NCBI GenBank assembly: GCA_947650365.1
Contig: OX393551.1
Coordinates: 62,365,173-62,429,172, forward strand
Source: Chamaelirium japonicum
Taxonomy: Eukaryota; Streptophyta; Magnoliopsida; Liliales; Melanthiaceae
Direction of reading: 5' to 3'
Length of the DNA: 64,000 nt
Of this stretch, positions 13,893 to 61,330 are shown in pieces (position 1 is the stretch's first letter; each line of letters opens with the position of its first letter). The translations under genes were made by a program, and so were the position numbers. The notes under the pieces were generated by a model. The model had not been told where the DNA came from. It saw nothing but the letters and a program-made list of their open reading frames with translations, and ran no database searches.

Positions 13893-14605
13893 AAGGCCGA
13901 TCAACTGCAACAGTACAAAGCTATGTGCCCCGATGTTGGTTCGACTGAAATGGCGCTTCGCCTAAGTCGACCGATACAAAGGCACTACGCTGCATACTTC
14001 GAATCATCGACGTCGCGCATACTCCCGAGTCTCGTAAGAACTCATGCACCCGTGCCTCGCCACAGTTAGATCGGTTCGCGTTGCGACACGACCGACTAAC
14101 CTGCAACAGTACAATGCTACGTGCCTGAGACGTAGGTTCGACTGAAACGGCGCTTCGCCTAAATCGACCGATACGAAGGCACTATACTGAGTACTCCGAA
14201 TCGTGGGTTTGCACACGCTCCCGTTGTCACGTAAGGACACATGTGCTCGTGCCTCACCACAATTAGATCGGTTCGCGTTGCGACATGACCGACTAACCTG
14301 CAACAGTACAAAGCTACGTGCCTGAGACGTAGGTTCGACTGAATGGCGCTTCGCCTAAGTCGACCGATACAAAGGCACTACGCTGAGTACTCCGAATCAA
14401 TGGTGTTGCACACGCTCCCGTTGTCACGTAAGGACACATGCCCCCATGCCTCACCACAGTTAGATTGGTTCATGTTGCGACACGACTGACTAACCTGCAA
14501 CAATACAAAACTACATGCTTAAGACGTAAGTTGGGCTGAAACGGTGCTTCGCCTAAGTCCAATCGATACAAAGGCGCTACGCTAAATACTCTGAATTCTA
14601 ACCTT
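13893..14605 (+). repeat. ~197-bp tandem repeat, about 3.6 copies
   Basis: The landmark CTAACCTGCAACAGTACAA recurs at about 14,097, 14,294 and 14,491, with a diverged first copy near 13,901, giving a 196-197-bp period. Each unit contains GGTTCGACTGAAACGGCGCT, a CGATACAAAGGCACTACGCT segment and GCTCCCGTTGTCACGTAAGG. The same unit, at a 200-bp period, forms the array at 55,010-55,945 in the gag-bearing element. The last copy decays at about 14,600. Confidence 0.9.
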
Positions 14606-20635: not shown

Positions 20636-21217
20636 CATCCATTTATTCCCTTAGAATTATTATATCTATTTCATTAATTATTGTCGAGTTGGCTTTGTCC
20701 TAGTCAGCTTGTCCTAGTCAATCACAAACCGCCGTACTTCCTAGTGCTATTTAGGATGGGTTTGGTAATTGCCCCAAAACTCCTACGCCGGTTTGGCACG
20801 GGTCCAAGGCAGGATAAAATTTAGCAGGATGGGTTCAGAATAGGACTGACCCGTTGCCATTCGTAGGCTACTCTTAAAATTAAAAAAAAAAAGGGGGGAC
20901 TTAGTGATAGGTCCCTGATGGAGGCATACCTTAACAATAAGGACGCTTAGATTTGCAACAGAATAAGTGATGCAACCAATGGCCCTGATGGCAAGATTGC
21001 TGACAATTTCTTATAAGAAGGTAGCAATACTTATCACTAGCAAAGAAAATGGATGAAACCACTTTCAGAACTGAAACTGATTCGACAACAACATAAGATT
21101 GACGACCTAAATTACAGTTCATAATACTTCGAGAAGTAAAACTCGGATCTTATTCATGACAAATTTGGAACTATCACCAAAGATTTGATGATTAAAATGT
21201 GTCCTTCAAGATGCAAC
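20636..21217. other. 3' flank of the MVD gene
   Basis: No coding region is seen. On the minus strand this is downstream of the MVD stop codon and should contain its 3' UTR and polyadenylation site, but I cannot place them. At 20,745-20,880 there is a GGCACGGGTCCAAGGCAGG-type segment resembling the dispersed repeat at about 18,640. Confidence 0.5.
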
Positions 21218-23259
21218 TCACTTCGGAAGCCCGGTTTCAATACTTAGCAGAGCTTGATCTTCATCGGGGAGCACCGTAATGCCTCTCCCGGGCCTAGTGC
21301 ATATGAAATAGCTAACTTCACCCGGAAACCTTTGAAGTGGAATCTTGTCCTTAACTTCAGGCAGCGGAAGCAAGGCTTCAACATCTTCCAGAGTCTGTAG
21401 CCCAGATTCATGCAGTATGGATTTGTCCCCCAATACATAGCTGGAAAAAAAAAAGATGGTGATAACACCGGTAAAGCCATATTTTTCTACCAAATAAAAG
21501 CATACTATTAAAAGTAAAAGAACACAATGACCTGTTCAATTCATTGTCTGGAGGGGGAGGGAAGTAGAAGAGCAGCCTTTGAAGAAGAGTAGTAGCAACT
21601 TTCCGATTTCGGGCGATCATAACCGCATTTGGACCCGCATCAAACGTGTAGGCCACCTATGATGTATCCTGGGTCATTATTCTCAATAATATGATAGGAA
21701 TGCAAGTAGGTTTGTGTATTTCACACGACACAAAAAGTTCCAAATCCTGAGGTACAAAATCTTGTTAATGAGGACTGCAAGATGGCCTAGAGTCGGGCCA
21801 TTGATCACTAGGAAGTGTTAATAATGTAATGGTTCATGGATTGAGTCAATTGACATATTGATCGGGCTGTAGGAGTTTAATATTCACTATGTAACTTGAA
21901 CATAGTTGTGCAATTTTTCAAATTCCTTTATTGATTAGGATTTTTTTAGGTGATGGACGAAATAAGCCATCAAATTGTTTTCTTGACGAAATAAACATGA
22001 AATTGCTTTCTGTGGACGCAGACTGTTGCATTACCCTACGGAGGATGGGAAATAACCTTGATATGTGGGATATTATGGAGATCTTTGAAATCTCCATAAT
22101 ATAATTATGACAATATATTTGGCATAATTAGAAAAGAGATTATATGATTTAAGAGAATTGAGGGATATTATGGAGATCTTTGAAATCTAAGATATTTAAT
22201 ATGAGATGCTGGAATATTTCATTCACAATCTATAGATACTATTGTAAACCTTGATACAAAAGTAATCAAGAAAAAAATTGTCTCGTCTGTGTGCTGCCTT
22301 GGCTTCCTTCTCTGATGGTTCACGAAACTCTTTATGGCATCAGAGCCTTTGAAGTCTCCTAACGGATATCCCTTGGCCTATATTCATCATCTTCTTCTCC
22401 TTTGATGTTTAATCCTTCCGCAGTCACTGCACTCTCAATCAATCACCAGTTTCCATAACCTCCATTAAACTTCATGTTGTCGTACCACTATCTCAGCTTC
22501 GTCGACCATGTCAAATCCACCTTTGCCATAGATCTGTGTCAAAATCATCAAACTTTTTTATTTTACTAGCCTACTTTAAATAAACGAGATTATTTTTCTC
22601 GTGAAATACGCATCCTTACTCCATCGTCAGGTATACAAAAAGTGGATCGTCTTTACAAAGTCGGATCTAAAGGACATGCCATAGATAGATAGAGCTAGAA
22701 CCTAAGCCAAAAGAAAGGCGAAAATCGATGTGATGCAACACAACCGAAAGGCCTCACAAAAAATGGTTAAAGAAGCTTGCTCAGGATAAAGGAAGGGAGA
22801 AGAAGGATAACTATGGCCTCTCTTCATTCCAAACTCACTCTGGTTCCAAGGAATCACTCCCGGGGGTCTTGAACCACACTAGAAGAGAAAGGTTGCAACA
22901 AATTTTTCATTAACCAATCAATAATCATTCCAACATTCTTTTATGATACTTGGGGTTTTTAAATAGGCTTACAACTAAGGGTGGACATGGACCTTGTGAC
23001 CCGCCCAGCCTGGCCTAACCATATACGAGACTCGAGCTAAATATAGAGGCCCTTACAACCAGATTTATAAAAAAGAAAGAGATAACCAAAACAACTAAAA
23101 AAGATAACCCTACCTAATTTAAAAAGATTTGAATCTAACCAAGCCTTATCCGAAAACCCATATTTAAAATATACTATTTAATATTTTTTTAAATAAAAAA
23201 TTATTTTCGAAAAAAAATAATATTTTATTTCAAAAATACTACTTTTAGCCATTATAAAT

Positions 23260-36879: not shown

Positions 36880-37850
36880 TGTTGTCGAGGGAAAATTTCG
36901 CTTGCTTGGATGCTCGACCTGCAAGGTAAGGAAAACGTGAGAACGGCTGAATCTGTGAGGAACGCAGACCCTCCGACGCTCAAGTCAATGATGGTTCGAA
37001 AGTTATGAGGTTTGGAAGTAGAAAAATGTCTCAATTTTTGAGTTTCAAACCTATACTTTGGAGCCGAGGATTATACCTTTATAGACCTTTTGCAGACCGC
37101 CAGAGTCTGACACATGGCCACTCTTTCCCGCACCTTCTACACCTTCATGTGCCAGTCCACATGGGCCCTTTAATGGCCTTTGTCATTTAGCTTGTCAGGC
37201 GGTGGTGGTCTAGGTTAGGTGGACATTCCTAAAGGCTCTAGTCGGGGGCATTCTAGACCGACTTTGGCCAGTGAATGTGGCTCGCAATCGTCCACGTAGT
37301 TTCAGGGGTGATGACATCTGTCGATTTGTTAGCGTCTTACTATAGGCGACCCCTGCGGGTAAGTAGGCGAACTCCTATGCTGTTATGTAATCAGGCGAGC
37401 TAATCGCGAGCTCCCGGGCAAGCTATGGGCATTGAATCTTCTGAGGGATTCTTTTAAGCTATGCCAGGGGCGACCTCTTCCGCGTGCGGTCAGGGCAAGC
37501 TGTGGGCGTTAGCCAGGAGCGATCTTTTCCGTGTGCGAGTCGATCACATATGGTCAGGGCGATCTCCCGAGGGAGCTGTGGGTGTTAGCCAGGGGCGACC
37601 TCTTCCGCGTGCGAGCCGATCGCATGCGGTCAGGGCGAGCTCCCGGGTGAGCTGTGGGTGTTAGCCAGGGGCGACCTCTTCTAAGTGCGAGCCAATCACG
37701 TGCGGTCAGGGCGAGCTCCCAGGCAAGCTGTGTCTCATAGTACCTTATAAAATAAGACCTCGAGGAAGATGCTGCTCTGTCCAAGGGACGCGGCGATCCG
37801 CTACTATAAAAGGCTTTGGCTAGACGATCCGGACTTCGGTTGGTACTACA
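36880..37850 (-). mobile_element. LTR-like repeat X, left part (interrupted by the CACTA element)
   Basis: About 36,900-37,000 is the inverted counterpart of the end of the solo LTR at 20,520-20,630 (shared GAGAACGGCTG and CTCCGACGCTCAAGT words), so a related LTR lies on the minus strand. At 37,570-37,850 the sequence GGAGCTGTGGGTGTTAGCCA onward matches 60,905-61,183 closely, and its continuation is found at 52,397-52,544, beyond the CACTA element. Internal GAGCTGTGGGTGTTAGCCAG blocks are repeated two to three times. No coding domain is seen. Confidence 0.55.
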
Positions 37851-37867
37851 CACTACAAGAAAGAGGG

Positions 37868-38420
37868 TCTTTACCGACGGACATTTTTATCACCGTCGGT
37901 AATAATACACATTTTACCGACGGTGACTATAATATTCGTCGGTATTATAACTTCAATTTTTTAATTTTTTTTTGCACATTTATTACCGACGGTCCAATAT
38001 ATTTCGTCGGTAAAACTATTTATACCGACGGTACATATATGTCCCGTCGGTAATATACTTTATACCGACGGCTACATAAATACCGTCGGTAAAATGTCAC
38101 GACGAAACTCAGGGTAAAAACCGAGCCTCTAGAAAAAAATATGACCCTGAGTTTCGTCGGAGAGTTTTACCGACGAACTTTATATCTCCGTCGGTATAAC
38201 TAATTATACCGACAGAAATTTTACGGCCGTCGGCACGATACCGACGGTAATTAAATATCCGTCGGTAAAAATATCACAACGAAACTCAGGGTAAAACCAA
38301 GCCTCTGGAAAAAAATGGAGCCTGAGTTTAGTCGTCGCTTTTTACCGACGGAGAATATGGTTCCGTCGGTAAAAAGGTTATTTTTACCGACGGAGGTAAA
38401 AATGTTCGTCGGTAAAAACC
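37868..38420. repeat. CACTA left subterminal repeats
   Basis: TTACCGACGG and its inverse CCGTCGGTAA recur about every 20-40 bp, often as hairpins with AT-rich loops. Two copies of a CACGACGAAACTCAGGGTAA / CCTGAGTTTCGTCG inverted pair lie within. In CACTA elements such subterminal motifs are the binding sites of the TNPA-type protein. Confidence 0.9.
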
Positions 38421-38478
38421 CTGTCTTAAATACCATTCAGCGATCCCCCCCTTCTGTTCTGTTTCGATCTAACCTCCC

Positions 38479-38480
<2 letters not shown>

Positions 38481-38546
<66 letters not shown>
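38481..38546 (+). repeat. (CT)n microsatellite
   Basis: About 33 CT dinucleotides lie inside the CACTA element, in the presumed leader region of its gene. Confidence 0.95.
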
Positions 38547-38549
<3 letters not shown>

Positions 38550-40010
38550 CTCCCCCCCTCCCCGGCCTCCCTCGCGTCGCATCCCTCCGGTCGACCGATC
38601 GACTGGCGGCAAGCTCCTCCTCCTCCTCGTGGGCTCCGGCCGGTGAGATCCTCCTCCTCCTCCTCCTCCCCCCGGTGAGCTCCTCCTCCTCCCATGGCCG
38701 AAGGATTTCTGTTGCTAGGATATACCTTATAATGTGTATGTTCCTTGTGTCGCTTCATGGGCCATAGTAAATTGAGTTTTCTACCAAGGTTGATTTGCTG
38801 TGATATTTAGTTCTGGTAATTGTTAAAAGTCATCTATTGCTAAATGCATGCTCTAATAAAAGGGAGTGATATTTAGTTCTGGTAATTGTTAAAAGTCATC
38901 TATTGCTAATGCATTCCCTAATGAAAGGGATATATTATTAACTTCTTCAACTAGAGTTTAAACATCTCAATGTGGATATTGAGGTAAACAAAAGCAACAT
39001 CTACGGGTACTTACCTTGCAATGATGTCATCCTTAAGTTGACCCGATCGCCCCTTGTTTATCTAGGTATGAAATTTTTGGGGTGCTGTAGGCTTATTGTT
39101 GATTCTTCACAGACTAGATTGTCTGCTTTGATTGAGATGTGTGCACATTATTACAGTCTAGTGCTCTAGAAAATTCCTATTGCTTAAGCATGGCTTGCCG
39201 AAGGGATGGTTTATAATGGAATTGGTTGTATTTATCGTTCAAATCCCATGCCATTAATAGTTAATTCAGTTCTTTACCTGCTTTTAAAACTTATTGTTGT
39301 ATTAACTTAATCAAAAGGACCTTCATGTCTATTAACTAACTCTATGCATCCAGCGGTTTTTATAATAATAATACATCAATATCCTATCATTTTAACAAAC
39401 TCATAATGACCAAGCAACTAAATACATAACCATAATAACAACCACCATCCAGCCTTGTCCCATCTAATCAAATTAGGATTCAATTCATTGTTTGAGTTGG
39501 TTTTTCACTACCGGCTTTCAACCTAACATCAACTTTTGACCTTTATCATCAGGGCTTGGGATTGGCATTGGCGGCCATATATTAAAAAACAAAATTTAAG
39601 TGAAAATATTTATATTTTTCGCTTTGTAAAGTGTATGTCCATCAGTGCTCTCCCTACTCTTATACCTTGACTTTAATAATCATCCCTCTTCTGGTCTTTT
39701 GTGGCCAATTTGGTTTTTTTGATGCACAATTATTCATCGACTGTATGATTTTAAGAAGATTGTAGGGGTTGATTTGTAAAAAAACTCTTTTAATGGGCTC
39801 CGGCCGGTGAGATCCTCCTCCTCCTCCTCCCCCCGGTGAGCTCCGACCGATTAACCGATTTAGAGTCTAACTGTTTCATATTGTTTCATATTGCGAGCGG
39901 GTTCATATTGTTTCATATGTAAATCATACTGTTTCATATGTAAATCAAACTGTTTCATATTGTTTCATATGTAAATCTTACTGTTTCATATGTAAATTAA
40001 ATTGTTTCAG
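38547..40010 (+). other. CACTA leader region upstream of the TNPA-like gene
   Basis: No coding region is supported. A GGGCTCCGGCCGGTGAGATC block followed by TCC repeats occurs at about 38,630 and again at 39,795, so part of the leader is duplicated. A ~66-bp segment containing TAGTTCTGGTAATTG is tandemly duplicated at about 38,800-38,932. At 39,875-40,005, TGTTTCATATGTAAATC is repeated several times. The final TTGTTTCAG just before 40,011 looks like a splice acceptor, so an untranslated first exon may lie within this stretch. Confidence 0.5.
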
Positions 40011-41676
40011 ATGGCATCACGGTCATATGTTCGTAGAGGCAGAGGCAGGGGTGGGGTAGCTCGGAGCGCTCCGGCTGCCACCCCAGGGTCCGAGGCTGAG
40101 CCGTCCGGATCTGGTAGTGTTGTTCCTCTCTCCACACCAGCACCTGCTGTGGTCGCAGCCTCTGGAGCTTCGAGCAGTGCTCAGCACTCGGCTACAGCGT
40201 CTACGCCCACAGGTAATGTTTAGATCTAAAGTTTTATACATGTTGTAAATACTTCTTCAGTACTGATGTATATTTTATTTGCAAGGTCGACCAGGCACGT
40301 AGGCGACCGGGGCGTGACGACGGCCCGGCGCTTGTCATCCTTACGCGAGCCGCTGTCCCTACAGTGGAGCGGCAGGACCTTTGTGGGCGAGCACGCTTCT
40401 GACGCCGCCACGTGGGTCGGCATTATAGTACGGGAGGAGAGGAATGCCCCGATTATGGGGTTAAGGGGGTGGAAGAACATTGATGCATCCTATAAGGAGA
40501 GGATGTATCAGCAGTTTTTGGTACGTTAGTTTCATTAAAGCATTTTAGAATAATATCGTACTTCTTTATAATTTGATTTGATAAAATGACTTGTTTCTAA
40601 ATTGATTTTACTGGAGAAATTTAAATAGGAGAACATGGAAACCGACACCCATCGGGAGGACTTGTGGAAGATGATGGGTGAGCTGTACAGGGATTACCGT
40701 CACGAGCTCTACCAGCTCTACGGTTACTTGGTCGGCCAGCCGGCTGAGGAGGTACAGACTGCGGCCGGGACGAGAGACGCGCCACCGCTACACATTCTAC
40801 AGTTTTTGGTCGCTCACTGGGCCACCCCTAGCTTTCAGGTATAATTATAATTTTGTTGATTCGTACTTGTTTTAATGTTATACTAAAAATTTGTATTGAT
40901 GTTTCGAAATTTAATCAATTGACACAGAGGAAATTTGCTATAGGCAAGCAGAATAGAAGTGCCTCGACGACACCTGCTCCAGTGAAGGGGAGGACCTCCA
41001 TGCCCCAGCTTGCCCAGCAGCTGGTAAATGATACAAACATTGTTATTATTTAAAGCTCTATACATGTTATATTAACTCATCTATTTATTTTATATGTCCA
41101 ACAGACACAGTCCTTGGGCCACGAGCCTAATAGGATTGACCTTTTTGAGGCCTCTAGGAGGCGGCGTATCGATGGGGCATTTCTGGACGACAGGGTTGCC
41201 TCGCAAGTGGTAAGTAATTAAATTACTGTTAATATATTCTTATACATATGCCATAAAATATCATTGAATATCATTGGTTGTTTTTATATAGGAGAGGATG
41301 CGACTTCTGGTGACCCCGTCGGGCGAGGCCGGCTCCTCCTCCAGCTCAGTATCTGTCGACTCAGCGATGGATACTGTGCTGAGACCTGCCACGCACGGCC
41401 GTGTCCTCTGTACGGGCCTTGGAGTCACGCCCTCCTCCTACTTTGGACGAGAGGGTATACGCTCGAGGGCATGGAACACCCAGACCGGTGCTATCACTCA
41501 GCTGCAGTCTGCACTAAACGCGGAGCGAGAGCAGAGGCAGGCCCTCGAGCAGAGGATTGAGGCGGAGCGAGAGCAGAGGCAGGCCCTCGAGTAGAGGGTT
41601 GAGGCGGAGAAGAAGGCCCTTGATGAGGAAAGAGAAGCTCGCAGGGAACTAGAGCGTAAATTTTATGAATTCATAA
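40011..41676 (+). CDS. TNPA-like CACTA protein (Transposase_24 type), spliced, with premature stop
   Basis: Six exons fit in phase: 40,011-40,212; 40,303-40,520; 40,629-40,838; 40,928-41,023; 41,105-41,209; 41,292-41,676. The product has an Arg/Gly- and Ala/Ser-rich N-terminus, a WKNIDASYKERMYQQFL segment, a KFAIGKQNRSAST segment and a Glu/Gln-rich coiled coil (AEREQRQALEQ repeated). This order is that of the plant Ptta/En/Spm Transposase_24 family, which binds CACTA subterminal repeats. A TAG at 41,592 ends the frame after about 377 codons; the preceding copy of the same 42-bp repeat has CAG there, so one C-to-T change explains it. The frame stays open beyond, to RKFYEF. The first exon may be preceded by another. 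Read by eye; boundaries of exons 1-2 are the least certain. Confidence 0.75.
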
Positions 41677-41724
41677 GTAAAAAAATATGAATCTTACTAA
41701 TTTGCGTTTAGATCATATTATCAC

Positions 41725-41780
41725 ACTTATGATTTTCCAACACTTAGACTCTAAATCGGTAAATCGGATCGTAAATGGTC
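41725..41780 (+). repeat. Isolated 56-bp fragment of the 181-bp satellite
   Basis: The sequence from ACTTATGATTTTCC through ACACTTAGACTCTAAATCGG to GGATCGTAAAT matches the start of the satellite unit at 44,549 onward, with one extra base loss before GGTC. It lies 2.7 kb upstream of the array, next to a short CT run, and carries the GGATCG variant. Confidence 0.9.
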
Positions 41781-41860
41781 TCTCTCTCTCTCTCTCATGG
41801 TAATGATGTAGCCTCTGTTTTTTTTTTAAATGATAGAATTTTGTTTTTTAATCATGCTAG

Positions 41861-41974
41861 GTGTGTGCCTCGTTGGAAGAGGGATATCTCCCTCATGTGA
41901 CATTTGTAGTGGACACAACAATATGCCACCCAACGGAGTTCGATTTCTATTTCTGCAGTTATGCTGGCATACAG
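41861..41974 (+). pseudogene. Captured Argonaute PIWI-domain exon fragment
   Basis: Between a GCTAG acceptor and a GTAAAC donor, 38 codons are open in one frame: [15 protein letters not shown], then [15 protein letters not shown], then FCSYAGIQ. These are recognisable pieces of the plant Argonaute PIWI domain, ending at the junction where plant AGO genes have an intron. The residues that normally lie between the VTF and VVDT parts, including the conserved Arg/His-rich stretch, are missing, so an internal in-frame deletion has occurred. The following AGO exon is not found downstream. It lies in sense orientation in the presumed last intron of the TNPA-like gene. I judge it a fragment captured by the CACTA element. 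Confidence 0.8.
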
Positions 41975-42837
41975 GTAAACTTTGACTGAAGCTTTGTAAG
42001 TGCAAATTATTTTAAATTCACTCATGCAATTGGTACTTTTTACGATTATACAAAGAGAATTAATTATAAGGATTATACCAATTGCATGAGTGAAGGGGTG
42101 TAATTGTAAGGATTTTCAAACTAGAGGGGGACATTTGTAGGGTTTTAAACATGAGGGGGTGAAAGTGATAATCACTAAAAAATACAGGGGGTCTCAGTGT
42201 AATGTACCTAAAAATTAACATGTGCTGTTGATGATGCAACTGAGAGAAGGGAGGAAGTTGTGTAGTTACTTGCAGGTTACTGTACATGTCAAATTGAAGC
42301 TCTTTTGTAACGTATACAAAGCTCCCTCTTTTTTGCATTCTACTGCAAGAATTAGGCTCCGATTTTTTCAAAGTAAAACTAATCAAAGTCAAACGTAAGA
42401 TATTATATTCATTCGTGGTATAAATACTTAGCTATATAAATATATTATTTCGTTTAAAGTAATTTTTTAGCCAAGTGTCTTGCCAAACCCAAGCTTTGTG
42501 GATTTGTTGGGGAACCTAGCCTTACCACAATGTCTGAAATTTTTCTGACGTAAAAGTAATTCCACAAGTGTTACTAATACTTCACTGCTTCGTAAATACC
42601 TCAAAACAAGAAAAAATTTGTGGAATTCCAAAATACTTACCAAAACATAACTCACCCCAATAAACGGAGTCTTAGAACAATTGGCAGGTAATGCCTTATT
42701 TTAATTACAATATTCTAAAGTTTTTGTTGTAATCAAAATTTTTATCTCTTTGAACATTGACACCCACAGAAGATGATGCAATCATTACTGTTCGTCATTT
42801 CTATGTCACCCTTGATATAATTTTGTTGTTTCTGCAG
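41975..42837 (+). other. Presumed intron with a small perfect hairpin
   Basis: TTCACTCATGCAATTGGTA (42,017-42,035) is perfectly inverted at 42,076-42,094. Beyond it are spaced GGGGG-containing words (AGAGGGGGACATTTG, TGAGGGGGTGAAAG, CAGGGGGTCTCAG) typical of small foldback repeats. No coding sequence is seen. Confidence 0.5.
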
Positions 42838-43300
42838 ACCCGTTATGGCCAGCAGAGGTAGGCTAGAGATTCCACCGAAGTCATCAAAACTAGACGGTCA
42901 TCTGGTGATCGACAAGATCCGACGCCTAATGCACCATCACGAATGGGTGATTATGCTGCCCCACTCTACTATATCTTGCGCACTGTCCTTCGTGGCTTTT
43001 TTTTTCTCTAATGCTTGAACTTTGTTATCAGAAAAAGGCCGTGGCAACGTCACACTGCTCACAGCCGAACACGATTGAGTACGAGATGGCGATGGACTGG
43101 ATACTGGTGCAAGAGAAATCCATTTGTTGGTTCAACCGGTTACATAAGGTCAAAAAGTAGTACTACAAATATTTCTGAAATGCTAACAATAATGTTCAGC
43201 ACCTCTGTCCGGTGTTTAAATGAGCCTTCTGAATCTTTTACAGGTGCATGATGATGAACTGGATTATTTTAAGAAGAGGTTTACATACAAACTAGAGTAG
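42838..43300 (+). other. Unidentified exon-like segments
   Basis: After a TTTCTGCAG acceptor, 42,838 onward reads TRYGQQR before a GTAGGC. A clearer pair follows: 43,032-43,148 (39 codons, with EYEMAMDWILVQEKSICWF) between ATCAG and GTCAAA, and 43,244-43,300 (VHDDELDYFKKRFTYKLE then TAG) after TTTACAG. Both are in phase 0 and join cleanly to a stop codon, as the end of a real gene would. I do not recognise the protein. They may be a second captured gene or distal exons of a CACTA gene. Confidence 0.45.
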
Positions 43301-43397
43301 TAAACTGGTGTACTTACTAACAATCCTGCACAAGATTTATCTTTCAAGGTATGAAAATATTATCCTTCTCCCCCTCCTATCCATTGAACATTAAGTA

Positions 43398-43812
43398 AAG
43401 GGGAAAATTACAAAAACCTTCCCTGAACTTTACACCTCTATTCATATTTGTCCCTCAGCTGTTTTTTTAAACAATTTGAACCCTGAACTATGCTCCGTCT
43501 GCATTTAGCTTCCTCCGTAAACTTTTTGTCCAAAAAAACACTTATCAATTTCCAAAAGGCTCATGATTTTTTGAAATTTTTAACTTATGCTTATTAGGAT
43601 AAAGGTAATGGTACCGAAAAGCTCATGATTTTTGAAATATTTAACTTATGCTTACTTGGATAAGGGTATGGGTGTTTTCGGGATAAAAATTGACAGAGGG
43701 GCTAAACGTAGGCGGAGCATAGTTCAGGGTTCAAATTAAAAAAAAAAGGTTGAAGAACCAATATGAAATTAGGTGTGCATAGTTTCAGGTGAGGTTTTTG
43801 TAGCTTGCCCTA
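43398..43812. mobile_element. Foldback MITE inside the CACTA element
   Basis: GGGGAAAATTACAAAAACCT at the left pairs with the reverse complement of the right end (AGGTTTTTGTAGCTTGCCCT). The inner words TTTGAACCCTGAACTATGCT and GCATAGTTCAGGGTTCAAAT also pair. The arms are about 130-180 bp. A central GCTCATGATTTTT block is duplicated. There is no open frame and no clear target-site duplication. Confidence 0.7.
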
Positions 43813-44426
43813 AATAAAATTACAGATTTGTAGATCCACATTTGAGGCTGACCATTCTTCATGCCATGGGACTGAATCAGAACATTACATATCTTTTTTG
43901 GATTCTGAACAAGCGACACATGTAAACAACCGACAGCTTCGACAATATCGACTTCGTTTCTTTGGATTTAGATCGTAGAAGAACGATGTAGCTGATTTTT
44001 GCCCCCTGGCTGACACATAATCCACACTGTCGCCAGTGTCGGGGAGTTAGTTTCCTGGAGCCGTCAATGTGGTACTCACTTGATGGAGATGGTGATCATA
44101 CCACACTGTTTCGATGGGTGTCCATTTTATAAGCATCGGCGAACCATGTGGCGATGGAGATGGTGATCCTCCCGCTCTGGGTGCACCCAAACCATCTAAC
44201 TTCGGGTCAGGTCATAGGATTGCAAGCCCCCGAAGTTTTTTACCCTAATTTGGGAATTCAACCACAGTTGATAGACAATCCTAGATATTTCTACAAGGTG
44301 CATTTCTCTTGTTCTATAGTTCAAGCCATCCATTCTCCTGCAATTAGCCCCGACCAAGTATTGACTAACCTTGTCTCTCTTATTTTCAATTTTATCTACA
44401 ATTTACTATTGGGCCATTCCCACCAA
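43813..44426. other. CACTA interior between MITE and satellite
   Basis: No recognised feature. GATGGAGATGGTGATC occurs twice (about 44,082 and 44,153). A 105-codon open frame from 44,148 has no recognisable domain and runs into the satellite. Confidence 0.5.
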
Positions 44427-47400
44427 CCAATTAGAACTCGCTCGCAAGTCCGAAATACGGAATAATTCCAACTTCGAATTATCGGATGCCGATCCGATGA
44501 CGATCCGATCGAATCCAAACCTATTTCATATCCGAAACACGCTAACTTATGATTTTCCAACACTTAGACTCTAAATCGGTGAATCGGAGCGTAAATTGGT
44601 CAAATATCCAATTAGAACCCGCTCGCAAGTCCGAAATACGGAATAATTCCAAGTTCGAATTATCGGATGCCGATCCGATGACGATCGGATCGAATCCAAA
44701 CCTATTTCATATCCGAAACACGCAAACTTATGATTTTCCAATACTTAGACTCTAAATCGGTGAATCGGGGCGTAAATTAGTCAAATATCCAATTAGAACT
44801 CGCTCGCAAGTCCGAAATATGTAATAATTCCAACTTCGAATTATCAGATGCCGATCCGATGACGATCGGATCGAATCCAAACCTATTTCATATCCGAAAC
44901 ACGCTAAGTTATGATTTTCCAACACTTAGACTCTAAATCGGTGAATCGGAGCGTAAATTGGTCAAATATCCAATTAGAACCCGCTCGCAAGTCCGAAATA
45001 CGGAATAATTCCAACTTCGAATTATCGGATGCCGATCCGATGATGATCCGATCGAATCCAAACCTATTTCATATCCGAAACACGCTAACTTATGATTTTC
45101 CAACACTTAGACTCTAAATCGGTGAATCGGAGCGTAAATTGGTCAAATATCCAATTAGAACCCGCTCGCAAGTCCGAAATACGGAATAATTCCAACTTCG
45201 AATTATCGGATGCCGATCCGATGACGATCGGATCGAATCCAAACCTATTTCATATCCGAAACACGCGAAGTTATGATTTTCCAACACGTAGACTCTAAAT
45301 CGGTGAATCGGAGCGTAAATTGGTCAAATATCCAATTAGAACTCGCTCGCAAGTCTGAAATACGGAATAATTCCAACTTCGAATTATCGGATGCCGATCC
45401 GATGACGATCCGATCGAATCCAAACCTAGCTATTTCATATCCGAAACACGCTAACTTATGATTTTCCAACACTTAGACTCTAAATCGGTGAATCGGATCG
45501 TAAATTGGTCAAATATCCAATTAGAACCCGCTCGCAAGTCCGAAATACGGAATAATTCCAAGTTCGAATTATCGGATGCCGATCCGATGACGATCGGATC
45601 GAATCCAAACCTATTTCATATCCGAAACACGCTAAGTTATGATTTTCCAACACTTAGACTCTAAATCGGTGAATCGGAGCGTAAATTGGTCAAATATCCA
45701 ATTAGAACCCGCTCGCAAGTCCGAAATACGAAATAATTCCAACTTTGAATTATCGGATGCCGATCCGATGACGATCCGATCGAATCCAAACCTATTTCAT
45801 ATCCGAAACACGCTAACTTATGATTTTCCAACACTTAGACTCTAAATCGGTGAATCGGAGCGTAAATTGGTCAAATATCCAATTAGAACCCGCTCGCAAG
45901 TCCGAAATACGGAATAATTCCAACTTCGAATTATCGGATGCCGATCCGATGACGATCGGATCGAATCCAAACCTATTTCATATCCGAAACACGCTAAGTT
46001 ATGATTTTCCAACACTTAGACTCTAAATCGGTGAATCGGAGCGTAAATTGGTCAAATATCCAATTAGAACTCGCTCGCACGTCCGAAATACGGAATAAAT
46101 CCAAGTTCGAATTATCGGATGCCGATCCGATCACGATCCGATCGAATCCAAACCTAGCTATTTCATATCCGAAACACGCTAACTTATGATTTTCCAACAC
46201 TTAGACTCTAAATCGGTGAATCGGATCGTAAATTGGTCAAATATCCAATTAGAACTCGCTCGCAAGTCCGAAATATGGAATAATTCCAAGTTCGAATTAT
46301 CGGATGCCGATCCGATCACGATCCGATCGAATCCAAACCTAGCTATTTCATATCCGAAACAAGCTAACTTATGATTTTCCAACACTTAGACTCTAAATCG
46401 ATGAATCGGATCGTAAATTGGTCAAATATCCAATTAGAACCCGCTCGCAAGTCCGAAATACTGAATAATTCCAACTTCGAATTATCGGATGCTGATCCGA
46501 TGACGATCGGATCGAATCCAAACCTATTTAATATCCGAAACACGCTAAGTTATGATTTTCCAACACTTAGACTCTAAATCGGTGAATCGGAGCGTAAATT
46601 GGTCAAATATCCAATTAGAACTCGCTCGCAAGTCCGAAATACGGAATAATTCCAAGTTCGAATTATCGGATGCCGATCCGATGACGATCGGATCGAATCC
46701 AAACCTATTTCATATCCGAAACACGCTAACTTATGATTTTCCAACACTTAGACTCTAAATCGGTGAATCGGAGCGTAAATTGGTCAAATATCCAATTAGA
46801 ACTCGCTCGTAAGTCCGAAATACGGAATAATTCCAACTTCGAATTATCGGATGCCGATCCGATGACGATCCGATCGAATCCAAACCTAGCTATTTCATAT
46901 CCGAAACACGCTAACTTATGATTTTCCAACACTTAGACTCTGAATTGGTGAATCAGATCGTAAATTGGTCAAATATCCAATTAGAACCCGCTCGCAAGTC
47001 CGAAATACGGAATAATTCCAAGTTCGAATTATCGGATGCCGATCCGATGACGATCGGATCGAATCCAAACCTATTTCATATCCGAAACACGCTAAGTTAT
47101 GATTTTCCAACACTTAGACTTTAAATCGGTGAATCGGAGCGTAAATTGGTCAAATAGCCAATTAGAACCCGCTCGCAAGTCCGAAATACGAAATAATTCC
47201 AAGTTTGAATTATCGGATGCCGATCCGATGACGATCGGATCGAATCCAAACCTATTTCATATCTGAAACACGCTAACTTATGATTTTTCAACACTTAGAC
47301 TCTAAATCGGTGAATCGGAGCGTAAATTGGTCAAATATCCAATTAGAACCCGCTCGCAAGCTCGAAATACGGAATAATTCCAACTTCGAATTATCGGCTG

Positions 47401-50400
47401 CCGATCCGATGACGATCGGATCGAATCCAAACCTATTTCATATCCGAAACACGCTAAGTTTTGATTTTCCAACACTTAGACTCTAAATCGGTGAATCGGA
47501 GCGTAAATTGGTCAAATATCCAATTAGAACTCGCTCGCAAGTCCGAAATACGGAATAATTCCAAGTTCGAATTATCGGATGTCGATCCGATGACGATCGG
47601 ATCGAATCCAAACCTATTTCATATCCGAAACACGCTAACTTATGATTTTCCAACACTTAGACACTAAATCGGTGAATCGGAGCGTAAATTGGTCAAATAT
47701 CCAATTAGAACTCGCTCGCAAGTCCGAAATACAGAATAATTCCAACTTCGAATTATCGGATGCCGATCCGATGACGATCCGATCGAATCCAAACCTAGCT
47801 ATTTCATATCCGTAACACGCTAACTTATGATTTTCCAACACTTAGACTCTAAATCGGTGAATCGGATCGTAAATTGGTCAAATATCCAATTAGAACCCGC
47901 TCGCAAGTCCGAAATACGGAATAATTCCAAGTTTGAATTATCGGATGCCGATCCGATGACGATCAGATCGAATCCAAACCTATTTCATATCCGAAACACG
48001 CTAAGTTATGATTTTCCAACACTTAGACTCTAAATCGGTGAATCGGAGCGTAAATTGGTCAAATATCCAATTAGAACCCACTCGCAAGTCCGAAATACGG
48101 AATAATTCCAACTTCGAATTATCGGATGCCGATCCGATGACGATCGGATCGAATCCAAACCTATTTCATATCCGAAACACGCTAACTTATGATTTTCCAA
48201 CACTTAGACTCTAAATCGGTGAATCGGAGCGTAAATTGGTCAAATATCCAATTAGAACCCGCTCGCAAGCTCGAAATATGGAATAAATCCAACTTCGAAT
48301 TATCGGATGCCGATCCGATGACGATCGGATCGAATCCAAACCTATTTCATATCCGAAACACGCTAAGTTATGATTTTCCAACACTTAGACTCTAAATCGG
48401 TGAATCGGAGCGTAAATTGGTCAAATATCCAATTAGAACTCGCGCGCAAGTCCGAAATAAAGAATAATTCCAAGTTCGAATTATCGGATGCCGATCTGAT
48501 GACGATCCGATCGAATCCAAACCTAGCTATTTCATATCCGAAACACGCTAACTTATGATTTTCCAACACGTAGACTCTAAATCGGTGAATCGGATCGTAA
48601 ATTTGTCAAATATCCAATTAGAACCCGCTCGCAAGTTCGAAATACGGAATAATTCCAAGTTCAAATTATCAGATGCCGATCTGATGACGATCGGATCGAA
48701 TCCAAACCTATTTCATATCCGAAACACGCTAACTTATGATTTTCCAACACTTAGACTCTAAATCGGTGAATCGGAGCGTAAATTGGTCAAATATCCAATT
48801 AGAACCCGCTCGCAAGTCCGAAATACGGAATAATTCCAAGTTCGAATTGTCGGATGCTGATCCGATGACGATCGGATCGAATCCAAACCTATTTCATATC
48901 TGAAACACGCTAAGTTATAATTTTCCAACACTTAGACTCTAAATCGGTGAATCGGATCGTAAATTGGTCAAATATCCAATTAGAACTCGCACGCAAGTCC
49001 GAAATACGGAATAATTCCAAGTTCGAATTATCGGATGCCGATCCGATGCCGATCCGATCGAATCCAAACCTAGCTATTTCATATCCGAAACACGCTAACT
49101 TATGATTTTCCAACACTTAGACTCTAAATCGGTGAATCGGATCGCAAATTGGTCAAATATCCAATTAGAACCCGCTCGCAAGTCCGAAATACGGAATAAT
49201 TCCAAGTTTGAATTATCGGATGCCGATCCGATGACGATCGGATCGAATCCAAACCTTTTTCATATCCGAAACACGCTAACTTATGATTTTCCAACACTTA
49301 GACTCTAAATCGGTGAATCGGAGCGTAAATTGGTCAAATATCCAATTAGAACCCGCTCGCAAGTCCGAAATACGGAATAATTCCAAGTTCAAATTATCGG
49401 ATGCCGATCCAATGACGATCAGATCGAATCCAAACCTATTTCATATCCGAAACACGCTAACTTATGATTTTCCAACACTTAGACTCTAAATCGGTGAATC
49501 GTAGCGTAAATTGGTCAAATATCCAATTAGAACCCGCTCGCAAGTCCGAAATACGGAATAATTCCAAGTTCGAATTATCGGATGCCGATCCGATGACGAT
49601 CGGATCGAGTCCAAACCTATTTCACATCCGAAACACGCTAAGTTATGATTTTCCAACACTTAGACTCTAAATCGGTGAATCGGAGCGTAAATTGGTCAAA
49701 TATCCAATTATAACTCGCTCGCAAGTCCGAAATACGAAATAATTCCAAGTTCGAATTATCGGATGCCGATCCGATGATGATCCGATCGAATCCAAACCTA
49801 GCTATTTCATATCCAAAACACGCTAACTTATGATTTTCCAACACTTAGACTCTAAATCGGTGAATCGGATCGTAAATTGGTCAAATATCCAAATAGAACC
49901 CGCTCGCAAGTCCGAAATACGGAATAATTCCAAGTTCGAATTATCGGATGCCGATCCGATTAGGATCGGATCGAATCCAAAACTATTTCATATCCGAAAC
50001 ACGCTAACTTATGTTTTTCCAACACTTAGACTCTAAATCGGTGAATCGGAGCGTAAATTGGTCAAATATCCAATTAGAACCCGCTCGCAAGTCCGAAATA
50101 CAGAATAATTCCAAGTTCGAATTATCGGATGCCGATCCGATGACGATCGGATCGAGTCCAAACCTATTTCATATCCGAAACACGCTAAGTTATGATTTTC
50201 CAACACTTAGACTCTAAATCGGTGAATCGGAGCGTAAATTGGTCAAATATCCAATTAGAACTCGCTCACAAGTCCGAAATATGGAATAATTCCAAGTTCG
50301 AATTATCGGATGCCGATCCGATGACGATCCGATCGAATCCAAACCTAGCTATTTCATATCCGAAACACGCTAACTTATGATTTTCCAACACTTAGACTCT

Positions 50401-51475
50401 AAATCGGTGAATCAGATCGTAAATTGGTCAAATATCCAATTAGAACCCGCTCGCAAGTCCGAAATACGGAATAATTCTATGTTCGAATTATCGAATGCCG
50501 ATCCGGTGACGATCTGATCGAATCCAAACCTATTTCATATCCGAAACACGCTAACTTATGATTTTCCAACACTTAGACTCTAAATCGGTGAATCAGAGCG
50601 TAAATTGGTCAAATATCCAATTAGAACCCGCTCGCAAGTCCGAAATACGGAATAATTCCAAGTTCAAATTATCGGATGCTGATCCGATGACAATCGGATC
50701 GAATCCAAACCTATTTCATATCCGAAACACGCTAAGTTATGATTTTCCAACACTTAGACTCTAAATCGGTGAATCGGAGCGTAAATTGGTCAAATATCCA
50801 ATTGGAACTCGCTCGTAAGTCCAAAATACGGAATAATTCCAAGTTTGAATTATCGGATGCCGATCCGATGACGATCCGATCGAATCCAAACCTAGCTATT
50901 TCATATCCGAAACACGCTAACTTATGATTTTCCAACACTTAGACTCTAAATCGGTGAATCGGATCGTAAATTGGTCAAATATCCAATTAGAACCCGCTCG
51001 CAAGTCCGAAATACGGAATAATTCTAACTTCGAATTATCGGATGCCGATCCGATGATGATCGGATCGAATCCAAACCTATTTCATATCCGAAACACGCTA
51101 ACTTATGATTTTCCAACACTTAGACTCTAAATCGGTGAATCAGAGCGTAAATTGGGTAAATATCCAATTAGAACTCGCTCGCAAGTCCGAAATACGGAAT
51201 AATTCTAAGTTCAAATTATCGGATGCCGATCCGATGATGATCGGATCGAATCCAAACCTATTTCATATCCGAAACACGCTAAGTTATGATTTTCCAACAC
51301 TTAGACTCTAAATCGGTGAATCGGAGCGTAAATTGGTCAAATATCCAATTAGAACCCGCTCGCAAGTCCGAAATACGGAATAATTCCAACTTCGAATTAT
51401 CGAATGCCGATCCGATCGAATCCAAACCTATTTCAAAACCAAAACACGCTAACTTATCATTTTTTAACGCTTAGA
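44427..51475 (+). repeat. 181/185-bp satellite array, about 38.6 copies
   Basis: Units starting at ATGATTTTCCAACACTTAGA recur from 44,549 to 51,286 with a period of 181 bp, or 185 bp when AGCT is inserted (CCTAGCTATTTC against CCTATTTC). Ten units are 185 bp: those starting at 45,273, 46,001, 46,186, 46,733, 47,642, 48,370, 48,917, 49,645, 50,192 and 50,739. Most copies differ at only a few positions. The first copy is partial and the last is shortened by a deletion near 51,411. Each unit gives a 62-68-codon open frame that is an artefact. The array lies wholly within the CACTA element. Confidence 0.97.
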
Positions 51476-51525
51476 CTCAGTTATAGATATAAACCATTTT
51501 TTTAACAAATACATGTTAATTGCAG

Positions 51526-51655
51526 GAGCAGGGCGACGTCAGGGGATCGATTAGAGCACCAGCGTTGGTGGCGGGCGGGGGTGGTTGAGATAGGGCGGCG
51601 TCAGGGGATCGATGAGAGCACCAGCGTTGGTGGCGGGCGGGGGTGGTTGAGATAG
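51526..51655 (+). other. Possible last exon of the TNPA-like gene, with 64-bp duplication
   Basis: After a TTAATTGCAG acceptor, one frame reads EQGDVRGSIRAPALVAGGGG and stops. The GCGTCAGGGGATCGAT-to-GGTGGTTGA segment is duplicated 64 bp downstream. If this is the terminal exon, the satellite array sits in a ~9.85-kb intron. The phase match to the exon ending at 41,676 is not exact with the donor I chose, so the link is tentative. Confidence 0.4.
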
Positions 51656-51934
51656 GGCATGTATCATCTCTCAGTTTTGGATTGTGTAAATATTATTTTG
51701 TAATATGTGGTTATTTTTTGTTCTTGTCTATAATTGTCGGGTACTGTGGTAATATTTGATAATTTACTGTAATTTTTTTATCAATTTAGGTAATATTTTA
51801 AAATTTGCGGTAATATTTTATAAATTATGGTAATATTTGATAAATTGTGGTAATATATTGTGGTATTGTTGTAAATCACAGGAATTAAATAACATTATTT
51901 AGGTAAATTTATTAAAAAAAAAAACATACTTATT
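51656..51934. other. AT-rich stretch with TAATATTT repeats
   Basis: GGTAATATTTTAAAATTTGC-type words repeat irregularly between the possible last exon and the right subterminal repeats. No gene is seen. Confidence 0.6.
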
Positions 51935-52393
51935 ACCGGCGGACATTAATTATTCCGTCGGTAATAATGTTTTCATTTTTTTAAAATTATAAATAATTTG
52001 CCGACGGCATATAATATCCGTCGGTAATATATATATTATTACCAACGGTACATATATATATGCGTCGGTAATATATATATTATTACCGACAGTATATACA
52101 ATAACCGTCGGTAAAATGCTTATATATTACCGACGTATTATTAAGTTTCATCGGTAATAATATATTATATTAATTTTTAATTGATTAAATATGATCGACG
52201 GCTTTAATATTACCGTCGGTAATAATTATTATTACCGACGGTAATATTTGGTCCGTCGTATTGTTTTCCCCGACGCCTTCTTTCCCGACAGCCAGCGACG
52301 GAAATATCTTCCGTCGCTATAAACTATTACCGACGGAATGTTAATATTACCGACGGATAGTTTCCGTCGGTAATAACTATTTTTTTTGTAGTG
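51935..52393. repeat. CACTA right subterminal repeats
   Basis: ACCGACGG / CCGTCGGTAA motifs recur densely with TATA-rich loops, mirroring the left end. The stretch ends in the terminal TTTTTGTAGTG. Confidence 0.9.
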
Positions 52394-52396
52394 ACA

Positions 52397-52544: not shown

Positions 52545-53305
52545 AGTGGGTGCAAAATCTGGCTAATGCCCAACGGTGGGACCCACAGCCCTACCTGGGG
52601 CCCACGAGTCCAACGGTGGGATCCGCATCTCTGCCTGGGGCCCACGAGTCCAACAGTGGGACCCGCAACCCTCTGGGGCCCACGAGTTTAATAGTGAGAC
52701 CCGCAGCCCTGCCTGGGGCCCACGAGTCCAATGGTGGGACCCGCAGCTCTGCCTAGGGCCCATGAGTACGACGGTGGAACCCACAGCCCTGCCTGGGGCC
52801 CACTTGCACTATCTCGGGTTTGGTAAATCCCCCCGAAAATTTACTAAACCCCGAATACTCTAAAGAATATTCTTAGAATATTCCTTAGATAAACCAAACT
52901 ACTATAAATACCAAACCCTGTAAATTATTCCGATCCCAAATTCCAGACCAAAAACCCACTTTCTGTTTTCCAGAGCTCCCTGAACTTTCTGGTTTTCAGA
53001 CTCCTTTTCCATACTCTGATTACTTGTAAGAAGCACTCCTCGGCCTATCGAGAGTAGCTCTATTGTTTACTCAGAGATAGTGGATTCAAAGGTTGCGACT
53101 TACCGCACAGAGGCGTAGGCTTCGGCCGAACTTCGTCACCACATCCTGTGTCATCTCTTTCTCTACCTTTCTACTCTACAGTGCTTGTGTGACAGCCCAG
53201 CAAGTCACAACTCAGCGCTTCGAAGCGCGCCATATCACGAAGGGTCAAACCTTCAATCGACTGTTGGAGGAGGATCACGTACGACGGCCGAAATCTTCCC
53301 CCACA
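52545..53305 (+). mobile_element. 5' LTR
   Basis: It begins AGTGGGTGCAAAATCTGGC, whereas the 3' LTR has TGTGGG, so the first base differs. It ends in CCCCCACA. The U3-like part (52,571-52,800) has six 40-bp repeats with CAACGGTGGGACCC and TGGGGCCCACGAGTCCAA. A TATAAATACC box at about 52,904 is a good promoter candidate. A GGCGTAGGCTTCGGCCGAAC segment lies downstream. Confidence 0.88.
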
Positions 53306-53306
53306 G

Positions 53307-54725: not shown

Positions 54726-55009
54726 GACCAATAGCTCAAGCTCGCAACGCTCAGGCTGAGGAAGATGGAACCTCTAAAAGGCCGAGGTGGGCAAACGATA
54801 GACCCATAGAGCCTCAGAAGACCACGGACACCAAAGGGAAGCACCCCATCAACTGATCATAGTAAAAGACCGTCGACTATCAATAACTCAAAAATTCCCT
54901 CATCTGAAATCCATGATGTAACATCTTCCAAGTTATCAATGAAATGACAGTTGCTTCAAGTTCTATCGAAGACTATCAAATTCTATCTCAACTTCTACTC
55001 AACGTCACA
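54726..55009 (+). other. Spacer between gag and 200-bp array
   Basis: No pol motif is seen; the frame closes at TGA in 54,723-54,725. The sequence runs directly into the tandem array. Confidence 0.6.
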
Positions 55010-55945
55010 ATTAGTTTGGTTCGCATTGAGACACGGCCGACTAACCTGCAACGGTACAAAGCTATGTGTCCGGATACATAGGTTCGACTAAAATGGCACT
55101 TCGCCTAAGTCCAACCAATACAAGGACGCTACGCTAAGTACTCCGAATCATTGGTGTCGCACATGCTCCCGTTGTCACGTAAGGACACATGCACTAGTGC
55201 CTCATTATAGTTAGTTCGGTTCGTGTTGCGACACGGTCAACTAACCTGCAACGGTACAAAGTTATGTGCCCCGATATGTAGGTTTGACTAAAACGGTGCT
55301 TCGTCTAAGTCCAACCAATACAAGGGCACTACACTGAGTACTCCGAATCATTGGCGTCGTACATGCTCCCGTTGTCACGTAAGGACACATGCACTAGTGC
55401 CTCACCACAGTTAGTTTGGTTCGTGTTGTGACATGGCCGACTAACCTGCAACAATATAAAGCTACATGTCCCGATACGTAGGTTCGACTGAAACGGCGCT
55501 TCGCCTAAGTCCAACCGATACAAGGGTGCTACGCTGAGTACTCCGAATCATTGGCGTCGCACATGCTCCCGTTGTCATGTAAGGACACATGCACTAGTGC
55601 CTCGCCACAGTTAGTTCGGTTCGCGTTACGACACGGCCGGCTAACCTGCAACGGTACAAAGCTACGTGTCTCGATACGTAGGTTCGACTGAAACGGCGCT
55701 TCGCCTAAGTCCAACTGATACAAGGGCGCTACGATGAGTACTCCGAATCATTGGCGTCGCACATGCTCCCATTGTCACGTAAGGACACATGTACTAGTGC
55801 CTCGCCACAATTAGTTCGGTTCGCGTTGCGACACAGCCGACTAACCTGCAACGGTACAAAGCTACGTGCCCCGATACGTAGGTTCAACTGAAACGGCGCT
55901 TTGCCTAAGTCTAACCGATACAAAGGACCACGCTGAGTACTCCAA
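55010..55945 (+). repeat. 200-bp tandem repeat, about 4.7 copies
   Basis: CTAACCTGCAACGGTACAAA recurs at exactly 55,041, 55,241, 55,441, 55,641 and 55,841. It is the same unit as in 13,893-14,605, with GCTCCCGTTGTCACGTAAGG and GGTTCGACTGAAACGGCGCT. The short minus-strand open frames are repeat artefacts. Confidence 0.95.
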
Positions 55946-55984
55946 ATTCTTACCCCATCGACCAATGAGTCCAAGGTCCCGCCC

Positions 55985-60150: not shown

Positions 60151-60904
60151 TGTGGGTGCAAAATCTGGCTAATGCCCAACGGTGGGACCCACAGCCCTAC
60201 TTGGGGCCCACGAGTCCAACGGTGGGACTCGCATCCCTGCTTGGGGCCCACGAGTCCAACAGTGGAGCCCTCTGGGACCCACGAGTCCAATAGTGAGACT
60301 CGCAGCCCTGCTTGGGGCCCACGAGTCCAATGGTGGGACCCGCAGCCTTGCCTGGGGCCCATGAGTACGATGGTGGGACCCGCAGCCCTGCTTGGGGCCT
60401 ACTTGCACTATCTGGGGTTTGGTAAATCCACTCGAAAATTTACTAAACCCCGAATACTCTAAAAAATATTCTTAGAATATTCCCTAGATGAATCAAACTA
60501 CTATAAATAGCAAACCCTATAAATTATTCCGATCCCAAATTCCATATCAAAAACCCACTTTCTATTTTCCAGAGCTCCCTGAGATTTCTGGTTTTCAGAC
60601 TCCTTTTCCATACTCTGATTACTTGTAAGAAGCACTCCTCGGCCTGTCGAGAGTAGCTCTACTATTTACTCAGAGATAGTGGATTCAAAGGTTGCGTCTT
60701 ACCGCACGGAGACGTAGGCTTCGGCCGAACTTCGTCACCACATCCTGTATCATCTCTTCCTCTACCTTTCTACTCTACAATGCTTGTGTGACAGCCCAGC
60801 AAGTCACAACTCAGTGCTTCGAAGCGCGCCATATCCCAAAGGGTCAAACCTTCAATCGACTGTTGGAGGAGGGTCACGTACGACGGTCGAAATCCTCCCC
60901 CACA
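60151..60904 (+). mobile_element. 3' LTR
   Basis: It begins TGTGGGTGCAAAATCTGGC and ends CCTCCCCCACA, matching the 5' LTR along its whole length with substitutions and a shortened minisatellite. A TATAAATAGC box is at about 60,503. Confidence 0.88.
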
Positions 60905-61330
60905 GGAGCTGTGGGTGTTAGCCAGGGGCGACCTCTTTCGCATGTGAGCCGATCACATACGGTCAGGGCAAGCTCCCGGGTGAGCTGTGGGTGTTAGCCA
61001 GGGGCGACCTCTTCTAAGTGCGATCCAATCACGTGCGATCAAGACGAGCTTCCAGACAAGCTGTGTCCCATAGTACCTCATAAAATAAGACCTCGAGGAA
61101 AATGCTGCTCTGTCCAAGGTACGCGGCGATCCGCTACTACAAAAGGCTTCGGCTAGACGATCCGGACTTCGGTTGGTACTACACCTACCCATTGTCACCA
61201 CTTCGTTAGGGCCCCTATGCCTTGCTAAGCTCCTTCCGCAGTGTTCAACACCATTGTTCTAGGGAGGTAAATGTCAAGCTCAATTGTTTCAGCTCTAGCT
61301 CGGATGAATGTAGAGCTCTTAGGCAATCTA
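60905..61330. mobile_element. LTR-like repeat X, second copy with empty CACTA site
   Basis: It matches 37,570-37,850 joined to 52,397-52,530. GGTACTACACCTACCC at 61,176-61,190 is the uninterrupted insertion site of the CACTA element, with a single ACA. A TATAAAATAAG box lies at about 61,080. Confidence 0.8.

Follow-up and report, generated by a model that had tools for sequence, protein, structure and literature searches.

A CACTA transposon carrying a satellite array and captured gene pieces in the genome of Chamaelirium japonicum

We analysed a 64,000-nucleotide stretch of the Chamaelirium japonicum genome (assembly GCA_947650365.1, contig OX393551.1, positions 62,365,173 to 62,429,172 of the forward strand; hereafter the window) and found that it contains a complete CACTA (En/Spm) transposon of 14,543 bp, nearly half of which is a tandem array of a 181/185-bp satellite. 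The same element carries a damaged TNPA-like gene and captured gene pieces, including a fragment of an Argonaute gene (Table 1). The position of the array inside a CACTA element is directly evident; movement of the array together with the element is a candidate idea. In the reading that we favour, with confidence that is about even, the element is non-autonomous, and its array grew inside it and was afterwards interrupted by an incoming block of gene scraps.

Results

A complete CACTA element and a related empty site

Both ends of the element open with CACTACAA, forming terminal inverted repeats of the CACTA type; the left end starts CACTACAAGAAAG and the right end, read inwards, starts CACTACAAAAAAAATAG. 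When the terminal 12-mers were sought on both strands with at most one mismatch, they were found in the window at both element ends and at 17,317 and 20,259, the last two being single-mismatch matches. As in other members of the CACTA superfamily, subterminal repeats are clustered in both orientations: 24 of the 28 exact CCGACGG/CCGTCGG 7-mers in the window are subterminal, one lies in an exon of the TNPA-like gene and three lie outside the element. The element is flanked on both sides by ACA, a 3-bp target-site duplication, and an empty site near 61,181 carries a single ACA. When a script joined the two flanks with one ACA, the product matched this empty site at 93.7% over 414 bp, ungapped and across the joint. 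Because the stretch after the element (52,546-53,306) also matches 60,152-60,905 (92.9%), the empty site is a paralogue, belonging to flanking sequence that is repeated locally, and not the other, opposite allele. It fixes the boundaries of the element, and for the age of the insertion it gives an upper limit only. The original prediction, made from the letters alone, had proposed these boundaries, the ACA duplication and the empty site, all of which hold, with the empty site now read as paralogous and not allelic. As a separate observation, a 76-bp tandem repeat occurs in the flank beside the insertion (37,498-37,732) and in the empty-site paralogue (60,907-61,065).

An array of 38 full satellite units

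Tandem Repeats Finder (TRF) reported an array at 44,427-51,416 (38.4 copies, 94% matches, score 12,381), a span of 6,990 of the 14,543 bp of the element (48%). Anchors placed 39 unit starts at spacings of 181 bp (28 cases) or 185 bp (10 cases), giving 38 full units in a long head-to-tail series of near-constant unit length, as expected of a satellite array. In these respects the earlier description, of a 181/185-bp satellite that makes up nearly half of a CACTA element and lies between its ends, was accurate. The last unit has suffered a deletion and further changes, and unit likeness stops at unit position 145, about window position 51,478.

The 38 full monomers have a mean pairwise identity of 94.9% (range 89.7-99.4%), each of them differs from all the others, and the array contains no exact 250-bp repeat. 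Tandem arrays are prone to assembly error, and the array might in principle have been joined wrongly into this locus. However, since no units are identical and there is no exact 250-bp repeat, the array does not look like one made by copying during assembly, and the satellite scraps found elsewhere in the same element (see below) also count against such an artefact, which we regard as barely credible.

Ten of the 38 units are of the 185-bp type, which is marked by a CTAG insertion and linked substitutions. We labelled unit types A (185 bp), B and C from alignment columns and compared their order along the array. At a lag of three units 19 of 35 comparisons matched against 11.3 expected, a count that 19 of 5,000 shuffles attained (ten lags tested, uncorrected), while at a lag of ten units 13 of 28 matched, which 428 of 5,000 shuffles reached. 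This three-unit, trimer-like repetition is clearest from unit 28 onward. Neighbouring units are no more alike than distant ones, with identities of 94.4% at lag 1 and 95.0% at lag 10. Departures from the consensus average 2.5% (175 of 6,878 bases, 1 to 9 per unit) and comprise 52 private substitutions (0.76%) and 123 shared ones.

Several possible functions or histories of the unit were considered and dropped. The array might have supplied extra TNPA binding sites, but the unit has no exact CCGACGG or CCGTCGG, and its 9-mers common to the subterminal stretches number 0 on the left and 3 on the right. The consensus unit contains a perfect dyad with 9-bp arms, CGATCCGAT, separated by a 4-base spacer, and its DNA folding is better than that of all 200 shuffles (z -2.67). 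One arm, however, has C instead of G (column 80) in 13 of the 38 monomers, and the dyad was therefore not retained as a conserved feature. Methylation-type decay was likewise set aside, since private transitions are not concentrated at CG (0.66% per CG site, 0.79% at CHG and 0.48% at CHH; 17 events). A centromere link of the satellite is unsupported: its grounds would be the monomer length and the dyad, and neither is a defining property of centromeric repeats.

Satellite scraps elsewhere in the element

We compared the consensus unit with the window after masking the array, taking as a yardstick the best score from 30 shuffles of the element, 26.5 bits. The strongest match is a detached satellite piece directly 3' of the TNPA-like gene. 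Its distance from the consensus is much like that of the array units, and the five of the 38 units with which it scores best all belong to the 185-bp type; on this comparison it looks like part of the array and not like an ancient seed. The array begins at unit position 1 and the detached piece ends at position 175, so that positions 176-181 (6 bp) are lost across the 2,646-bp block between them. By simple counting, the chance of landing within 6 bp of phase is about 13 in 181.

A second, diverged scrap lies upstream in inverted orientation and consists of two parts, between which 111 bp of the unit are replaced by 15 bp. The first part (39,847-39,875; 29 bp, 93%) scores 44.6 bits (E 8e-7), and the second (39,891-39,910; 20 bp, 90%) scores 28.3 bits (E 0.065), which taken alone is marginal against the shuffle best. 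Directly before this scrap, at 39,794-39,844, lies a second copy (94.4%) of 54 bp from the 5' leader of the element (38,630-38,683). Outside the element the 64-kb window holds no convincing trace of the satellite, the best match being 25.6 bits (E 0.79) at 16,580. Taken together, these scraps, of which one is in phase with the beginning of the array, hint at a history of the array within the element, and at nothing beyond that.

A damaged TNPA-like gene and captured DNA

The hand-spliced protein of the TNPA-like gene matched PF03004 (Plant transposase, Ptta/En/Spm) over residues 204-330 with E 1.1e-14 and 55.1 bits against a cut-off of 28.7, as expected for the TNPA-like protein of a CACTA element. 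One in-frame TAG (41,592-41,594) interrupts the gene near the C-terminus, beyond the matched domain; a 42-bp stretch is duplicated there, and the TAG falls in its second copy. Introns 2 to 5 are bounded by GT and AG and preserve the reading frame. At the chosen GT-AG sites of intron 1 the GT donor is out of phase, which means either a second lesion or a wrongly drawn exon 1. A protein search returned no match at E 1e-3 among the 7,996 top word-sharing candidates scored. Proteins of the PF03004 family occur widely in plants, so plants are probably sparsely represented in the database.

A six-frame scan of 37,851-44,426 and 51,490-52,393 found no TNPD or other transposase domain. The same scan missed the exon-split PF03004 domain, so a split TNPD could have been missed too. 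Nevertheless a TNPD-type transposase, which is needed only in an autonomous copy, is most likely absent from the element. Matches of the TNPA-like protein to Orbi_VP5, and of the element to Atrophin-1 and S4_2, fell below curated cut-offs and were set aside.

The block between the detached piece and the array consists of captured and nested DNA. None of the 15 inverted repeats found joins both block ends, so it was rejected as a single terminal-inverted-repeat element, and, with no Helitron ends seen by eye, as a Helitron too. One component is the Argonaute fragment, 114 bp encoding 17 + 21 residues joined across an internal deletion. All 24 solved sequences that it matched are Argonautes, the best being Argonaute 10 (7sva) with E 1.3e-11. 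The second part aligns to Argonaute 10 residues 862-885 (34.5 bits, E 1e-7) and the first to residues 817-835 (8.6 bits, E 29, weak alone), with 32 Argonaute 10 residues missing between the two; the Pfam Piwi match (E 0.0013) is below the family cut-off. Because the AG before the fragment and the GT after it resemble splice sites, the fragment probably came from genomic DNA. Matches of the captured pieces to SoxA-TsdA and a REC114-like family were below curated cut-offs and were discarded. Just past the fragment, at 42,017-42,094, there is a hairpin with a perfect 19-bp stem and a loop of 40 bases. The exon-like pieces of a second gene further along the block gave no match in domain or protein searches. 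Thus three other parts of the original prediction, namely captured gene pieces, a damaged TNPA-like gene and no visible TNPD-type transposase, also stand, the Argonaute PIWI fragment being the one gene piece now recognised and the last point being subject to the blindness of the scan to exon-split domains.

Table 1. Features of the CACTA element and its surroundings (window coordinates)
Feature	Position	Strand	Remarks
Left target-site duplication, ACA	37848..37850	.	
CACTA (En/Spm) element, complete, 14,543 bp	37851..52393	+	termini, ACA duplication, related empty site
Left terminal/subterminal repeat region	37851..38430	+	CCGACGG/CCGTCGG motifs 37,874 to 38,387
Diverged inverted satellite scrap	39847..39910	-	unit 161-133 + unit 21-2
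TNPA-like gene, PF03004 Transposase_24	40011..41690	+	six hand-spliced exons
Detached satellite piece, unit positions 119-175	41725..41780	+	94.7% to consensus, 57 columns, 86.9 bits
Block of captured and nested DNA, 2,646 bp	41781..44426	+	between detached satellite piece and array
Captured Argonaute PIWI fragment	41861..41974	+	38 codons in two stretches
Exon-like pieces of second gene	42840..43302	+	read by eye
Nested foldback, stretch with inverted arms, like a miniature inverted-repeat transposable element	43401..43810	.	inverted repeats I1 and I2
Satellite array, 38 full 181/185-bp monomers	44427..51478	+	decayed 39th from 51,345
Right subterminal repeat region and terminal repeat	51920..52393	+	motifs 51,955 to 52,364
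Right target-site duplication, ACA	52394..52396	.	
Related empty site	60905..61318	+	paralogous flank copy without element

Other repeats and a possible gene in the window

The window holds further tandem repeats. A 13-kb array of a GC-rich 65-bp repeat (77-80% matches), which can also be read as 130- and 195-bp units, occupies positions 1-13,396. Tandem repeats of 197 and 200 bp, with consensuses that are alike by eye, flank the element at 13,905-14,596 and 55,006-55,947, and a 40/43-bp repeat family occurs at 15,782, 52,570 and 60,176. On the minus strand at about 21,200-21,700 a reading frame resembles, by eye, what we take to be the end of a diphosphomevalonate decarboxylase.

Discussion

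Origin and history of the array

In our favoured reading the element is a non-autonomous CACTA transposon, with ends and subterminal repeats that look intact enough for movement in trans, should a related element supply a TNPD-type transposase. The array may have grown inside it, adjoining the TNPA-like gene at its 3' end, through unequal exchange or slippage during replication that involved a block of a few units; such processes would yield the trimer-like order and leave the last unit decayed. Gene scraps would have arrived afterwards, as a block that inserted into the first unit of the array and cut the detached piece off from it; the detached piece ending at 175 and the array starting at 1 suggest that block 41,781-44,426 perhaps entered the first unit of an older array. 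Because the unit lacks an exact subterminal motif, the array is most likely cargo with no role in transposition, and it would travel with the element if the element still moves.

Several observations weigh against this history. Splitting of an array does not account for the scrap that lies upstream in inverted orientation. The phase coincidence of detached piece and array is a lead, not proof, as a 7% chance is weak evidence. The flat similarity over lags gives little sign of recent local duplication. No stretch in the array-masked window gives the whole monomer, leaving birth of the satellite from internal sequence unsupported. Finally, the main rival, in which the element took up a satellite that already existed in the genome, accounts for the data nearly as well. 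Under such capture the satellite would be an independent genomic family, and the element would have taken up a ready-made array and scraps, as has been argued for a CACTA element of Chenopodium quinoa (PMC8978399). The satellite scraps in two orientations within one element do look like repeated uptake from a common source. Against capture, the window shows no convincing satellite trace outside the element, though 64 kb says little about a genome. We consider capture a real possibility, though a tentative one.

Alternatively, the element might have contained few units or none at the time of its insertion, the array then expanding in place and never having moved. The 2.5% consensus departures are lower than the 6.3% divergence between flank and empty site (about 3.1% per lineage), which is a weak hint that array turnover may postdate the flank duplication. 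However, the empty site, as a paralogue, can do no more than set a maximum age for the insertion, homogenisation of the array would make private changes underestimate age, and the comparison covers a single copy of the element. Growth in place therefore seems to us unlikely.

Relation to known satellite-bearing transposons

The closest published case, as far as the accessible parts of the reports cited here go, is a 16,523-bp CACTA element on scaffold 3389 of C. quinoa, which carries 32.5 copies of a 171-bp satellite (5,550 bp) near its 3' end (Belyayev et al. 2022, PMC8978399). Three further CACTA-like elements of that genome carry the 171-bp satellite, and the authors interpret the array as a capture. 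Like the present element, the quinoa element is a CACTA transposon with a satellite array near its 3' end, and gene fragments were captured by its relatives. There are also clear differences. Similarity between the quinoa and present monomers is limited to 10-base chance matches. The quinoa elements retain a Transposase_21 domain, whereas the present element has a PF03004 gene and no TNPD was found in our scan; the gene scraps are Neprosin and AP2 in quinoa and Argonaute here; and detached satellite pieces occur in the present element, whereas the accessible text describes none for the quinoa elements (PMC8978399).

Other links between transposons and satellites are known. For example, CficCl-61-40, the major Chenopodium satellite of about 40 bp, reportedly derives from the tnp2 transposase gene of the CACTA-like element Jozin (Belyayev et al. 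2020, PMC7320549), and a review counts it among transposon-derived satellites (PMC9659126). Arrays of Arabidopsis Atenspm and the Triticeae Afa and TM-2 repeats are also named (PMC7320549). As here, CficCl-61-40 is a satellite array tied to a deletion-derived CACTA element; its monomer, however, was taken from the transposase gene, whereas the present unit is matched outside the array by scraps only. In Drosophila virilis, Tetris (PMC4079207) likewise links a DNA transposon to an emerging satellite, but it is an insect foldback element. In mostly open-access literature, at the level of titles and the openings of abstracts, a search for CACTA elements with satellites, captured satellite DNA, Argonaute or other gene fragments, and centromeric satellites gave no closer case. 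The element type is thus already known from quinoa, and the Argonaute scrap and perhaps the split array are the features of its own.

The Argonaute scrap is a second, testable oddity of this locus. There is a parallel in miR820, a microRNA whose target is reportedly DRM2. It resides in rice CACTA elements (PMC3459959), likewise a case of a CACTA transposon linked to a silencing gene, although there the link is made by a microRNA. In comparison, the present element has a 114-bp Argonaute scrap only.

Implications

At its furthest, the element family could be imagined as a working vehicle that seeds a nucleosome-length satellite genome-wide, centromeres included, while transcripts of the Argonaute fragment give small RNAs against a host silencing gene and so ease its spread, a scenario that we consider very improbable. 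More modestly, the origin and spread of satellites is a long-standing question, and this locus offers a proposed order in which the array came before the gene-scrap block. If that order is true, sister copies of the element are expected to have the first array units or the detached piece in common. Should sister copies prove to have arrays that differ in length but agree in the order of their units, the carriage of a satellite by a transposon would be directly seen.

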